From assembly GCF_016924835.1 (NCBI RefSeq), contig NZ_CP070480.1, positions 1,674,001 through 1,738,000 of the forward strand: a DNA stretch of 64,000 bases, written 5' to 3'. This stretch comes from Rothia sp. ZJ932. Its GTDB lineage: Bacteria; Actinomycetota; Actinomycetes; Actinomycetales; Micrococcaceae. The notes below the pieces were generated by a model. That model saw only the letters and a program-made list of their open reading frames with translations. It made no database searches and was not told the DNA's origin. Position numbers and translations under genes: made by a program. Position 1 is the first letter of the stretch. Every line of letters begins with the position of its first letter. This document shows positions 3,107-11,601 of this stretch, in pieces.

Positions 3107-3145
3107 GCAAACCCCCGACTGAGCCAAGCCAGACGGGGGTTTTGC
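3107..3145 (-). terminator. Terminator of the truncated tRNA-Ile2 copy at the left junction
   Basis: A CCCCCG/CGGGGG stem with flanking A/T pairs lies just downstream of the tRNA 3' fragment on the minus strand. Its inner arm is the start of the 62-bp direct repeat. It was probably the original chromosomal terminator of the tRNA gene before the element integrated. Confidence 0.6.
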
Positions 3146-3194
3146 GTATTTATATGTAGGGCCTGCGGGACTTGAACCCGCGACCAAGGGATTA
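3133..3194. repeat. Left 62-bp attachment-site repeat (attL side)
   Basis: Exact match, base for base by eye, to 11540-11601. The sequences diverge right after ...GGGATTA, that is inside the anticodon loop of the tRNA, which marks the limit of shared att identity. The repeat includes half of a terminator stem, the trailer and the tRNA 3' half. Confidence 0.93.
3157..3194 (-). pseudogene. Truncated tRNA-Ile2 3' fragment
   Basis: Thirty-eight bases identical to the 3' half of the intact tRNA at 11564-11637: end of anticodon loop, variable loop, T arm, 3' acceptor strand. The 5' half is missing and the next bases belong to the element. It is the displaced chromosomal 3' end left by integration and is not functional as a tRNA. 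Confidence 0.9.
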
Positions 3195-3303
3195 GAAAAA
3201 GCGGGGTTCATCTATATTTATAGAGAATGAAAAATAAGGCTCTGACTAGGCTTTACGCCGATTCCTTAGTGTGGTGAGATTCTTTTTTATTCATCTTCTT
3301 TCG

Positions 3304-3331
3304 TTTGTAATTGGACAGTTTTTGGACACCT
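3304..3331 (+). repeat. Left copy of a 28-bp repeat with paired TTGGACA, candidate integrase arm site
   Basis: Matches 11456-11483 at 27 of 28 positions. Each copy contains two TTGGACA heptamers ten bases apart (start to start). One copy sits about 110 bp inside the left core repeat and the other about 57 bp inside the right one, as expected of arm-type sites on the two sides of an attP core. Confidence 0.6.
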
Positions 3332-4237
3332 ATTTAGCCCGCCCGCCCAGCAGTGCCACAGAGCTACCTCATGGACACCACCCACCCCATGCACCACCAA
3401 CAGCGAGCGCAATTCTCTGCCCTGCTCTGCCGTCACCACGCCCACCCCGGGCAACTACCGAGAAAATCTCGGTGGTTGCTTGGGACGGGAAGACCCGTGA
3501 AATGACCGCTCTGCATAAGGGCGCTGTGCCGATGTGGCTTGCCACCCTCTCAGAGAACAAGGTCAAGCAAGAAGCTCGCCACCAGCACCGCATAAAAAGC
3601 ATGGGGGGGGAACCCCACCCCCTCCCCGCCCCCTTTTTCCCCGTTCGGTGGTGTCTGTCACTAGAGGTCTGTACGGTTGCCAGGGGTTTAGAATAACCCG
3701 CTTTGGAGTTGATAAATATGCGATGTCCTATCTGCGGCGCGCCGGTTTATGCGCACACAGGGGCACACCCTTTGCCAGCTACAGCCTGAACCGCGCTCGC
3801 CACCAGCTGTGGGTGTTACACCCACAGCTGCTCATTCATCCGCGGCAACAGCTGAAACTCAAAACCACCAAATCGGCGGTTTTGAAAATCACCTGCCCTT
3901 TGTGTTTGTGGAAAGTTGCCGGGGGGATATTTCTCTATACCGAGGGGTGTGACTGGCTGGTAGGAGGGGAGGGGATACCCCCGTGGAGAGAAAGGACGGC
4001 GGCACTCCGGGGCGGGGCAAAGCAGGGTGTTGCTGGTGGCGTTGTCGTCCCTTTGCTCTTGCTCTGTTGTAACCTCAACGAACGGGTGAAAAATACTGAC
4101 CCTATCCACAGGGTGTTATTCCCCCGCCTGTTGAGTTCTGAACCTGTGCATCATCACAGGTGCTATGCGCTAGCGGTCAAGGGTCAGATGGCGGCGGGGT
4201 CTACCCCCTACGTTCATGGTGGCTAGGAAGTCTTGGG

Positions 4238-4422
4238 CAACCGATATGAACATAATATCGGTTGGTGCAGATGGTCGGCGGGCACGAGAAAGCCCCCTCA
4301 TACACGGGCAAGCGTGCTACACAGATAATCTGTGTAGCTGGTGCAGATGTACGTTTTTCGTACACCAGCTAAAGCCCCTCATGCGCGGGCAGGCGGATGA
4401 CAGGATTACTATTCCGGTCATC
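4238..4422. other. Array of four hairpins interleaved with a 25-bp repeat, function unknown
   Basis: Perfect or near-perfect stems: CAACCGATAT/ATATCGGTTG (4238-4264), CTACACAGAT/ATCTGTGTAG (4317-4337), a GCTGG..TGTACG/CGTACA..CCAGC two-part stem with a TTTTT loop (4337-4369), and GATGAC..GTCATC (4396-4422). Between them lie two copies of an AAAGCCCC(C)TCAT.C.CGGGCA.GCG repeat (4289-4314 and 4371-4395), each directly before a palindrome. Single-strand origin, oriT, packaging site or structured RNA are all possible; the sequence does not decide. Confidence 0.6.
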
Positions 4423-4768
4423 GATTCTTCATGTACGGGTGACCGCCCAGACTAGCAACCGCAAGCGAGCGCGGATACAAGAAAGCCCACGAATATCGTA
4501 GAAAGGGTTCGCGAAAGCTCCCTCTGCATTGTGGAGGTAGATACCGGCTGCGGCTAAAGCCAATGAATTTCATAGACGAGCGCGGGTAATAAGAGGGGTA
4601 TGAGTTTTATTCACACCCTTTTGCGCAGACGCAGGTAAGAGGTGAAACACTTTTTACCCGAACGGTTGAAAAGTCCCTCAAAGGGTCTCCACATTCTGGT
4701 GACCCTTATATTAGCCCCCTCAGGGTGTGGTCGAGAGATGACGGTGCTCTAACCGCCACCGGCTGACA

Positions 4769-10284: not shown

Positions 10285-10286
10285 AA

Positions 10287-11462
10287 ATGCCGCGCGAAGT
10301 TAAGCCGCTAGGGACTCACGGCAAAATCAAAACCACCGCGCTACCCAACGGAACCTACCAAGCAGACACCAGACTACGCACCCACACCGGGGAAATAGTC
10401 AGAGTCAGAGCCCGCGGCGCATCAGCCTACAAAGCAGAAACAGCGCTCAAAGCAAAAATTACTGAGTACAACGCACCCCACCGACACAACAGCATTCACC
10501 CCGGAACAAAAATAACCGAACTCGCCACCATCTGGTTCGAAAGATACAAGAGCGAGAACCGCGCGGTAAACACCCTCAGCCGCTATGAGGGCGTGATTAC
10601 CACCTACATTATCCCGCGCATGAAAGGGCTAACCCTCAAAGAATGCAGCGCCGGAATTACTCACAACGTCCTCACCGGAATAAAAGACACCCACGGGTAC
10701 AGCAGCGCCAAACAAACTAAAACAGTGCTCTCAAACATGTTCAATTTAGCCCGTGAGTACGACGCGATACAGATAAACCCAACAGCCGGGCTGAAACTCA
10801 AAAAAGAATCAGGGCACACCAAAAAGGCAGTAGACGCACTTTCACTAGACGAAGTACAGCGAGTCACCAGCGCCCTAAGCGGCGATATTCTCACCGTAGC
10901 TCAGGTCATGCTAGGCACAGGCGGGCGCATAGGCGAGGTACTGGCTCTACGGTGGCAAGACGTAGACCTCACGCCGGGACGAGCAGCAATACATTTCACC
11001 GGAACTTTCGCACAAGCCTACGCGGGCAAGCCAGCACACCGGCAGGAAATGACTAAATCAGATTCATCATTACGCATGGTCTTTATCCCAGATGAACTAG
11101 CGGCAATCCTACGTGACCGCGCTCAAAATCATATCCCGGCGTATGCAGAGTCTACAGCGTGGGCGACCTCTGACGCGTTCGTATTCCCCTCGGGTAAGGG
11201 GACGATACTAGACCCGAACAATTACCGATCCCGGTTCAGGAAACAGATTCAGGGTGCCAACTTAGGGCGGGATATATCGCCGCATATTTTTCGTAAGACG
11301 GTGGCGACTTTGGTAAGTAGTAATGATTCACTTGCTGTTGCGTCTCAGTTGCTCGGGCATAGCTCAGAAAAAATTACTGAGGAGTACTACATCAAGAAGC
11401 TCAGTGAACAGCCGAATGCGTCTAAAACTTTGGGTGTTCTTTTTGGTGCGCCGGTTTTGTAA
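10287..11462 (+). CDS. Tyrosine recombinase (phage-type integrase)
   Basis: 391 residues from ATG at 10287, two bases after the regulator's stop, with GGGAG upstream. Order: an N-terminal arm-binding-like domain (about 20-60), SAM-like core-binding domain (about 75-165), catalytic domain (about 185-385). Catalytic residues by motif: Arg214 (GGRIGEVL), His333 and Arg336 (PHIFRKT), His358 (LGHSS), Tyr367 or Tyr368 (EEYY). It catalyses integration at and excision from tRNA-Ile2; its stop overlaps one arm-type repeat and the core repeat begins 78 bp later. Expression together with the repressor implies that it is made in the integrated state. Confidence 0.95.
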   Translation: MPREVKPLGTHGKIKTTALPNGTYQADTRLRTHTGEIVRVRARGASAYKAETALKAKITEYNAPHRHNSIHPGTKITELATIWFERYKSENRAVNTLSRYEGVITTYIIPRMKGLTLKECSAGITHNVLTGIKDTHGYSSAKQTKTVLSNMFNLAREYDAIQINPTAGLKLKKESGHTKKAVDALSLDEVQRVTSALSGDILTVAQVMLGTGGRIGEVLALRWQDVDLTPGRAAIHFTGTFAQAYAGKPAHRQEMTKSDSSLRMVFIPDELAAILRDRAQNHIPAYAESTAWATSDAFVFPSGKGTILDPNNYRSRFRKQIQGANLGRDISPHIFRKTVATLVSSNDSLAVASQLLGHSSEKITEEYYIKKLSEQPNASKTLGVLFGAPVL

Positions 11463-11483
11463 TTGGACAGTTCTTGGACACCT
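11456..11483 (+). repeat. Right copy of the paired TTGGACA repeat, candidate arm site
   Basis: 27 of 28 bases match 3304-3331. It begins inside the last codons of the integrase gene. See the left copy for the argument. Confidence 0.6.
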
Positions 11484-11507
11484 TAGGCAGTTCCAACCCC
11501 CGAATGA

Positions 11508-11550
11508 AGAACCCCCGCTTGACTGTTTAGCCTAGTCAAACGGGGGTTTT
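11508..11550. terminator. Terminator shared by the integrase (+) and tRNA-Ile2 (-)
   Basis: AACCCCCG/CGGGGGTT outer stem with an inner TTGACT/AGTCAA stem, T-rich on the plus side. The element supplies this terminator for the tRNA it restores. The inner loop (CTGTTTAGCCTAGT) is nearly the same as that of the terminator after the truncated tRNA-Asn copy at 14789-14831. Confidence 0.8.
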
Positions 11551-11601
11551 GCGTATTTATATGTAGGGCCTGCGGGACTTGAACCCGCGACCAAGGGATT
11601 A
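11540..11601. repeat. Right 62-bp attachment-site repeat (attR side)
   Basis: Exact copy of 3133-3194. Here the sequence continues into the 5' half of an intact tRNA-Ile2, so this side holds the functional tRNA. Confidence 0.93.

Follow-up and report, generated by a model that had tools for sequence, protein, structure and literature searches.

Genomic organization of the element

The stretch of DNA analyzed here, positions 1674001-1738000 of contig NZ_CP070480.1 from Rothia sp. ZJ932 (the window, 64 kb in length; the host genome comprises two contigs and 2.26 Mb, 2,261,372 bases of it in this contig), contains a small integrative element inserted in a tRNA gene, which is probably a minimal phage satellite. 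For a glycosyltransferase encoded downstream, the named relatives that score best come from Rothia (64%). All coordinates given below are positions within the window. The element lies between direct repeats of 73 nt with 96% identity (3122-3194 and 11529-11601), spaced 8407 bp apart, whose exact part covers 62 bp as had been predicted originally (attL, 3133-3194; attR, 11540-11601), and excision between them was computed to yield a circle of 8,407 bp. The target gene is a CAU tRNA on the minus strand (11563-11637), the single intact copy recognized by ARAGORN, located at the right end where attR supplies an element-borne copy restoring the tRNA 3' end. The left repeat contains the 3' part only, i.e. 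the displaced end of the host gene, in agreement with the original prediction of a split and restored tRNA. ARAGORN labels this tRNA as Met; we take it to be the Ile2 (lysidine) tRNA. A further structured RNA inside the element was rejected, as the Rfam gathering score was reached by the tRNA alone; the sub-threshold matches were a 16-bit tmRNA match in the left tRNA 3' repeat and a plastid match antisense to the tRNA. A second pair of repeats, of 28 nt and 96% identity, is found on the plus strand at 3304-3331 and 11456-11483. As analogous repeat pairs are present just inside both att ends of two other Rothia elements (L142 and L075, see below), these are probably arm-type sites of the integrase.

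The genes are arranged as a rightward pair, coding an XRE-type regulator and a tyrosine integrase, and a leftward operon coding an AlpA/MerR-like protein, open reading frames (ORFs) of 105, 84, 205 and 75 aa, and a replicase. The integrase (391 aa, 10287-11462, plus strand) is an open and intact frame, as had been claimed, that matches PF00589 (E = 6.1e-19; 68.9 bits against a cut-off of 27.1) and shows the catalytic R, HxxR and Y by eye; its start is more likely the ATG at 10287, 3 nt beyond the stop of the XRE gene. The XRE protein (300 aa, 9382-10284, plus strand; HTH_19, 7e-10) is divergent from the leftward operon and is a probable repressor. The 72-aa AlpA/MerR-like protein (9058-9276, minus strand), which is 45% identical to its homologue in L075, matches MerR-like (4.9e-5) and excisionase (1.7e-4) families of PHROGs and is a probable excisionase or activator. 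Its match to HTH_17 (PF12728; E = 0.0029, 18.3 bits) falls under the Pfam cut-off of 27, and the AlpA half of the originally proposed XRE/AlpA-type switch is a borderline assignment. A possible role of the same protein as a terminase small subunit (TerS; phrog_57, 0.003) was discounted, since this match ranks behind the other two.

The remaining small genes of the leftward operon are all on the minus strand, with overlaps at 7818-7828 and, with the replicase gene, at 7601-7604. The 105-aa protein (8724-9041) is 37% identical to a 142-aa protein of L142; the 205-aa protein (7818-8435) has relatives in L063 and L075 and a weak match to DUF3039 (2.5e-4, under the cut-off); and the 75-aa protein (7601-7828) resembles an L075 protein along 59 aa (31% identity, E = 5e-4). 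Thus three of the small genes that had appeared unrecognizable have relatives in sibling elements, whereas for the 84-aa ORF (8438-8692) that description still applies, with no match in the Pfam, PHROGs, NCBIfam or PADLOC scans. PADLOC gave a single weak helix-turn-helix match among all the element proteins.

The replicase (817 aa, 5151-7604, minus strand; the ORF is extendable to 7679) combines Prim-Pol, D5_N and DUF5906 regions, the last with a match to PF19263 (3.5e-9, 37.8 bits against a cut-off of 27.6), and is also recognized by the NCBIfam model for P4-family primases (TIGR01613; 198.5 bits, cut-off 108.7). Matches of this protein to tail-fibre assembly families (phrog_105, 0.006; PF02413, 0.044) are weak and were discounted. 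Near the replicase gene, eight of the 15 GGGACA/TGTCCC words of the entire window are concentrated in 299 bp (4778-5076), a density of eight words in 300 bp that none of 200 mononucleotide shuffles reproduced. This supports the original call of a Prim-Pol/superfamily 3 (SF3) helicase replicase with nearby iterons, and the cluster is a probable replication origin.

The 1.95-kb region to the left of the replicase (3195-5150), which the original prediction could not match to anything, was rejected as a novel gene module. Its recognizable contents are a fragment of an antirepressor gene, a 28-bp block discussed below, and the iterons. A DNA search of this region against 35 Rothia genomes gave short matches. 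The piece at approximately 3449-3580 (plus strand) aligns along 132 nt, with 79% identity, to a portion of an intact phage antirepressor gene of 258 aa in another Rothia genome (G020; phrog_524, 2e-27) and is therefore gene debris. This debris makes up part of the ORF at 3271-3696; neither this ORF nor the one at 3534-4226 matches an NCBIfam or PADLOC family at 0.01. Further to the right, a palindrome-rich and gene-poor stretch (4200-4620) is predicted to fold strongly (z = -3.5; 0 of 100 shuffles), and one 42-nt piece of it resembles a stretch within a 140-aa chromosomal ORF.

Packaging, particle and transfer genes

Searches of the eight element proteins against Pfam, PHROGs and NCBIfam gave no convincing match to a terminase, portal, capsid, tail, relaxase or TraB/FtsK family, which bears out the original description of an integrative element that is self-contained and has neither capsid nor transfer genes. 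A decayed capsid gene was likewise rejected, as tblastn with four capsid or scaffold-like proteins of sibling elements gave a best E of 0.24, and no TerS remnant was detected by tblastn at 0.1 in the window element or in the Rothia elements L142, L141, L075, L063 and L076. The host genome gave no phrog_2 terminase, with a profile that also missed the terminase of a Rothia prophage described below.

Related elements and variation at the tRNA site

Protein searches were made in a set of 5.8 billion proteins, of which each search scored the 8,000 with the most words in common with the query. Among these best-word candidates the closest non-self integrase is 73% identical and the closest Prim-Pol relative 43% identical (44% in the alignment), which disfavors the possibility that the element is a fixed remnant. 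The nearest Prim-Pol (P0001) and an integrase of 47% identity (P0129) both report one contig of 9,725 bp, which suggests, short of proof, that the two genes occur together in a second element. The original prediction had proposed the recurrence of this pair in related genomes as a check; within Rothia the related integrases are accompanied by other replicases. A clean empty site was not found: in one genome (G024) the flanking protease gene and tRNA are syntenic, about 2.6 kb apart and without a tRNA duplicate, and in another (G034) the right flank alone matched.

Partial copies of the CAU tRNA accompany the intact gene on its contig in six of the 35 Rothia genomes (G000, G008, G019, G020, G025 and G028). 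In the three of these that were compared, the contents at this site differ, being a 7.6-kb sibling element in G019, a region of transposase-like ORFs without an integrase match in G028 and a prophage in G025. The latter (G025:C1:2114187-2154935; L069-L071) is 40.7 kb long and encodes a terminase large subunit (TerL), a major head gene and a related Prim-Pol. Thus, in Rothia, a prophage and satellite-like elements use the same attachment gene. A 12.2-kb element at a CAU tRNA is also found in G051 (L126:6370-18617); its integrase has 29% identity, its replicase is of the D5 type, and one weak match is to a tape-measure family (phrog_6090, 1.6e-5). Another Rothia mobile region, in G020 (L082:1550-2539), contains an ORF with tandem VYGDARVYGNA-type repeats.

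Integrase matches of 36-41% identity led to sibling elements of 5.6-9.1 kb in the same or other tRNAs of Rothia. L063 (G019; CAU tRNA, 7.6 kb; integrase 40%) and L075 (G008; tRNA-Lys, 5.6 kb; integrase 37%, excisionase 45%) both encode an AAA_25 ATPase in place of the Prim-Pol, and these ATPases are 72% identical to each other. In L076 (1320-10425, G009; tRNA-Arg, 9.1 kb; integrase 36%, XRE protein 33%) the ATPase is helicase-like, and a lone major head protein of the HK97 type is encoded (phrog_10, 8.7e-14), with no terminase or portal match in the locus. The neighbor of this head protein is scaffold-like by eye, and matches only phrog_17237, of unknown function, and Pfam Snf7 (2.6e-6). L142 (G005; tRNA-Ser, 8.8 kb) is a further complete element. 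The scenario in which homologues always carry structural or conjugation genes, lost only in the window element, is not borne out as far as examined, since neither TerL nor portal nor major-head matches were obtained in L063, L075 or L142. Nine comparator loci were also silent, both with the local models for TerL and portal and with the TerL and portal of phage Hum25. Such silence in the siblings is weak evidence because the local models have limited reach, matching 43 (TerL) and 22 (portal) of 152 loci, mostly viral contigs or prophages.

Prim-Pol matches, which are present in 37 of 395 Micrococcaceae genomes at E = 1e-40, led in part to prophage-type loci with TerL (L111-L113, L117, L072 and L070) and in part to compact elements in which a WhiB-like gene is accompanied by one major head protein. 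The latter include L119 (5716-14177; uncultured Kocuria) and L120 (5732-14420; Arthrobacter sp. 9AX), both in tRNA-Ser, which share the gene order and strands of the window element, with the major head protein placed after the Prim-Pol, and L114 (7489-14723; Arthrobacter cheniae), which has a serine integrase and all its genes on one strand. None of the three gave a TerL or portal match. In a tree of 43 Prim-Pols, that of the window element groups with P0001 and P0002, and then with a clade holding the one from a Rothia prophage (97/83), while the capsid-bearing Kocuria and Arthrobacter elements are placed elsewhere on very long and unsure branches. Common descent with these capsid-bearing elements can thus not be taken as demonstrated, and as the tree separates them, the layout common to the window element and L119/L120 may be convergent.

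A conserved cos-like block

The left region contains a short block resembling a cohesive-end (cos) site, CGGGGGGATATTTCTCTATACCGAGGGG plus 6 nt (3920-3953, plus strand), which is common to three other Rothia elements. The pattern CGGGGGGATATTTCYCTATRCCGAGGGG is the same in all four except at the Y and R positions, and the flanks are far less alike. A 26-bp core of the block, with up to 3 mismatches allowed, occurs as one copy each in four of 395 Micrococcaceae genomes, in every case within a Rothia mobile element, and the reversed-pattern control gave none. The window element, L142 and L075 are complete, and in these the distance of the block from the att site distal to the integrase is 0.73, 0.66 and 0.77 kb, measured inwards; the fourth carrier, L141 (G016), looks remnant-like. 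The three complete carriers use different replication genes, namely the Prim-Pol, an initiator O-like protein (phrog_391, 9.5e-11; L142) and the AAA_25 ATPase (L075), and therefore the block is not an origin specific to one replicase.

A weight matrix built from the four Rothia copies and run over 3.25 Mb of partly overlapping loci found a single further outlier, in another genus (L129, score 21.1; the next score is 13.9 and the best of 60 shuffled loci 15.7). A widened pattern searched in 390 genomes recovered L129 and one more locus, L274. In both, a 25-nt core of the block is situated directly upstream of terS, at 67 nt (L129) and 48 nt (L274), and in the same orientation to this gene. The TerS of L129 matches phrog_1496 (2.8e-18) and that of L274 is 88% identical to it. 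L274 (3845-14068, G065; 10.2 kb) has a tyrosine integrase, and its ATPase shares 62% identity with the one in L076; L129 covers approximately 6247-10979 in G347. The two, which have a replication ATPase or D5 primase and gave neither TerL nor portal matches, are small elements resembling phage-inducible chromosomal islands (PICIs) in two further genera. In the full phage Hum25, the first gene codes a TerS of 33% identity; it begins at base 52 of the linear record, which we take to start from a cos end by the usual convention. These observations make a cos site the best reading of the block, short of proof, and we consider the chances that it serves as the packaging site of the element to be about even.

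Several observations weigh against this reading. The orientation of the block relative to the integrase gene is inverted in L075, and only L274 counts as an independent find, because the widened pattern was written with L129 in view. The ends of Hum25 are unlike the block by eye. Four pattern scans of viral_contigs each gave 0 contigs, a DNA search of the left region against the phage collection gave no match, and positions 3880-4030 gave chance-level matches only (best E 2 among 5 records, the limit being set to 10). The block was found in no full phage or prophage, all matches of the family and genus scans being in small elements or remnants, and two genus scans (29 and 38 genomes) found it only in the known elements of G065 and G347. 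Finally, a locus with a TerS of 85% identity (L281) lacks a clear copy of the block upstream of terS and keeps the 16 nt CTGGATGAATCGACCT, which adjoin the block in L129 and L274. L281 is IMGVR_UViG_3300041404_000019, a 4.5-kb contig on which TerS is followed by a tape-measure-like gene.

The block could instead be a regulatory site, such as an operator for a regulator common to the elements or their helpers, which we hold to be somewhat less probable than a packaging function and which concerns the block and not the satellite nature of the element. Its partial palindromy, seen by eye, its presence in Rothia elements without terS, and the retention of TerS without a clear copy of the block in L281 would all agree with an operator. 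However, the block is single-copy per genome wherever it is found, its surroundings in the window element are gene-poor, and its closeness to terS, which it precedes by 48 nt in L274 and by 67 nt in L129, fits less well with this explanation.

Comparison with known mobile elements

The best-known phage satellites are those of staphylococci, enterobacteria and vibrios. P4-type satellites have an AlpA-like regulator, insert in tRNA genes and are defined by their sid, psu, delta and epsilon genes. The window element resembles them in its P4-family primase/SF3 replicase, its insertion in a tRNA and its borderline AlpA-like regulator, but the Pfam, PHROGs and NCBIfam scans revealed no Sid, Psu, Delta or Epsilon-type family. 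Actinomycete integrative and conjugative elements (AICEs) and integrative mobilizable elements (IMEs) are defined by a TraB/FtsK-type transfer protein or a relaxase, neither of which was detected in the same scans; nor was any evidence obtained for hitch-hiking on an integrative and conjugative element, as had been suggested alongside a phage helper. A further point of comparison is Mycolicibacterium phage Alyssa1 (OR387110.1; L278, 11,078 bp), which is likewise very small and actinobacterial, with an integrase and no annotated portal. It differs in having terminase, head-tail, major capsid and tape-measure genes and a serine integrase; the gene annotated only as 'terminase' matches TerS, and the gene content suggests that a satellite was deposited here under a phage name.

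The closest published parallel is provided by the phage-inducible chromosomal minimalist islands (PICMIs) of Vibrionaceae, which are recognized by an integrase (PF00589, PF00239 or PF07508), AlpA (PF05930 or PF12728) and a primase with DUF3987 or DUF5906 (PF19263), with a fis site mandatory in one of the models, and have no capsid-remodelling genes (PMC10803314). The window element shares with them the integrase, the DUF5906-type primase core and, as a borderline match, an AlpA-type protein, further the small size, the lack of a capsid-remodelling gene, pseudogenes within non-coding stretches and a gene directly beside the integrase gene. It differs in coming from outside the Vibrionaceae, in being inserted in a tRNA and not beside fis, and in encoding an XRE regulator, a full Prim-Pol/SF3 replicase and its own cos-like block. 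Since the integrase and primase both score above their Pfam cut-offs, the AlpA match remains borderline under its own, and the fis site is lacking, we regard the element as PICMI-like in its working and do not file it as a PICMI.

Candidate PICIs of Mycobacterium and the phiRv1/phiRv2 elements are another actinobacterial parallel (PMC10654092); they have an integrase, are often in tRNA genes, in some cases have replication genes, and use attB sites that are sometimes common to prophages. They are defined there by an integrase plus a major capsid gene; the latter is absent from the window element and present in L076, L114, L119 and L120. The Mulch/Flayer systems of Streptomyces are also helper-dependent phage satellites of Actinobacteria, but are described as encoding genes for encapsidation (PMC10690885), of which the window element has none. 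Hence the original notion of an undescribed satellite type survives only in part: the set of integrase, AlpA and DUF5906 primase without capsid genes, and the integrase-plus-capsid elements, have been published for Vibrionaceae (PMC10803314) and Mycobacterium (PMC10654092), respectively. In the open-licence literature we found no report on Rothia phage satellites, nor on Arthrobacter phage satellites with a major capsid protein.

Functional interpretation and evolutionary implications

Taken together, the gene content and its sequence context suggest, with good though not overwhelming likelihood, that the element is a minimal PICMI-like phage satellite of Rothia lacking terminase and capsid genes. 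The satellite lifestyle proposed originally gains indirect support from the sibling with a lone head protein (L076) and from the position of the block upstream of terS in two elements, although no helper was found. The element is complete and probably functional, and is probably able to excise and copy itself but not to build a particle. In such a scheme the XRE protein would keep it silent until a helper phage, or stress, lifts this silencing; the AlpA-like protein would then turn on the leftward operon and aid the integrase in excising the 8.4-kb circle. The Prim-Pol/SF3 replicase would initiate replication at the iterons, the helper's own terminase might cut the cos-like block so that the DNA is packaged into helper particles, and in a new cell the integrase would re-insert the element at the same tRNA 3' end.

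Two other explanations have to be set against a satellite. The replication gene is itself no proof of a satellite, as phages frequently encode proteins related to this Prim-Pol (913 phage records and 550 viral contigs). One is that the element is a degraded prophage that lost its late genes, kept the integrase, switch and replication modules, and is not actively mobile as a satellite. The sister relationship of its Prim-Pol clade to that of a Rothia prophage and the occupation of the CAU tRNA by the 40.7-kb prophage in G025 would fit such an origin, as does the partial decay of the left region with its phage gene fragment. However, all the modules for excision and replication are open and the att repeats are exact, similar-sized elements with related integrases recur at several tRNAs, and the 9,725-bp contig suggests a second element with the same gene pair; this origin is accordingly regarded as unlikely.

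The other, which we judge to be quite improbable, is an integrative plasmid or AICE-derived element that would replicate once excised and be spread by transformation or by the conjugation machinery of another element, with the block as an origin or a site resembling an origin of transfer. Prim-Pol replicases can be used by AICEs and are also found on plasmids, with 383 matching PLSDB records (329 of them from Streptomyces), none of which covers 80% of the query. Such an origin is difficult to square with the lack of a TraB/FtsK, relaxase or other transfer family among the eight proteins, and a role of the block in plasmid biology with its sharing by elements with three different replication genes and with the variants adjoining terS in L129 and L274.

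If the element is indeed a satellite, it might belong to an actinobacterial group that has not been described so far, a proposal we make tentatively from the sequence comparisons. Its members would have little in common but a 28-bp packaging signal, with integrases (and hence tRNA targets) and replication genes swapped freely, and with terS kept beside the signal in some and absent from others, among them the window element; one conserved cos-type site would link them, in three genera or more, to helper terminases of one shared kind. The capsid-gene rule used for the Mycobacterium candidates (PMC10654092) would overlook the window element as well as those siblings that have no capsid gene. Should the block prove to be a packaging site, it would offer a short, searchable handle for both satellites and helpers in Rothia and other Micrococcaceae.

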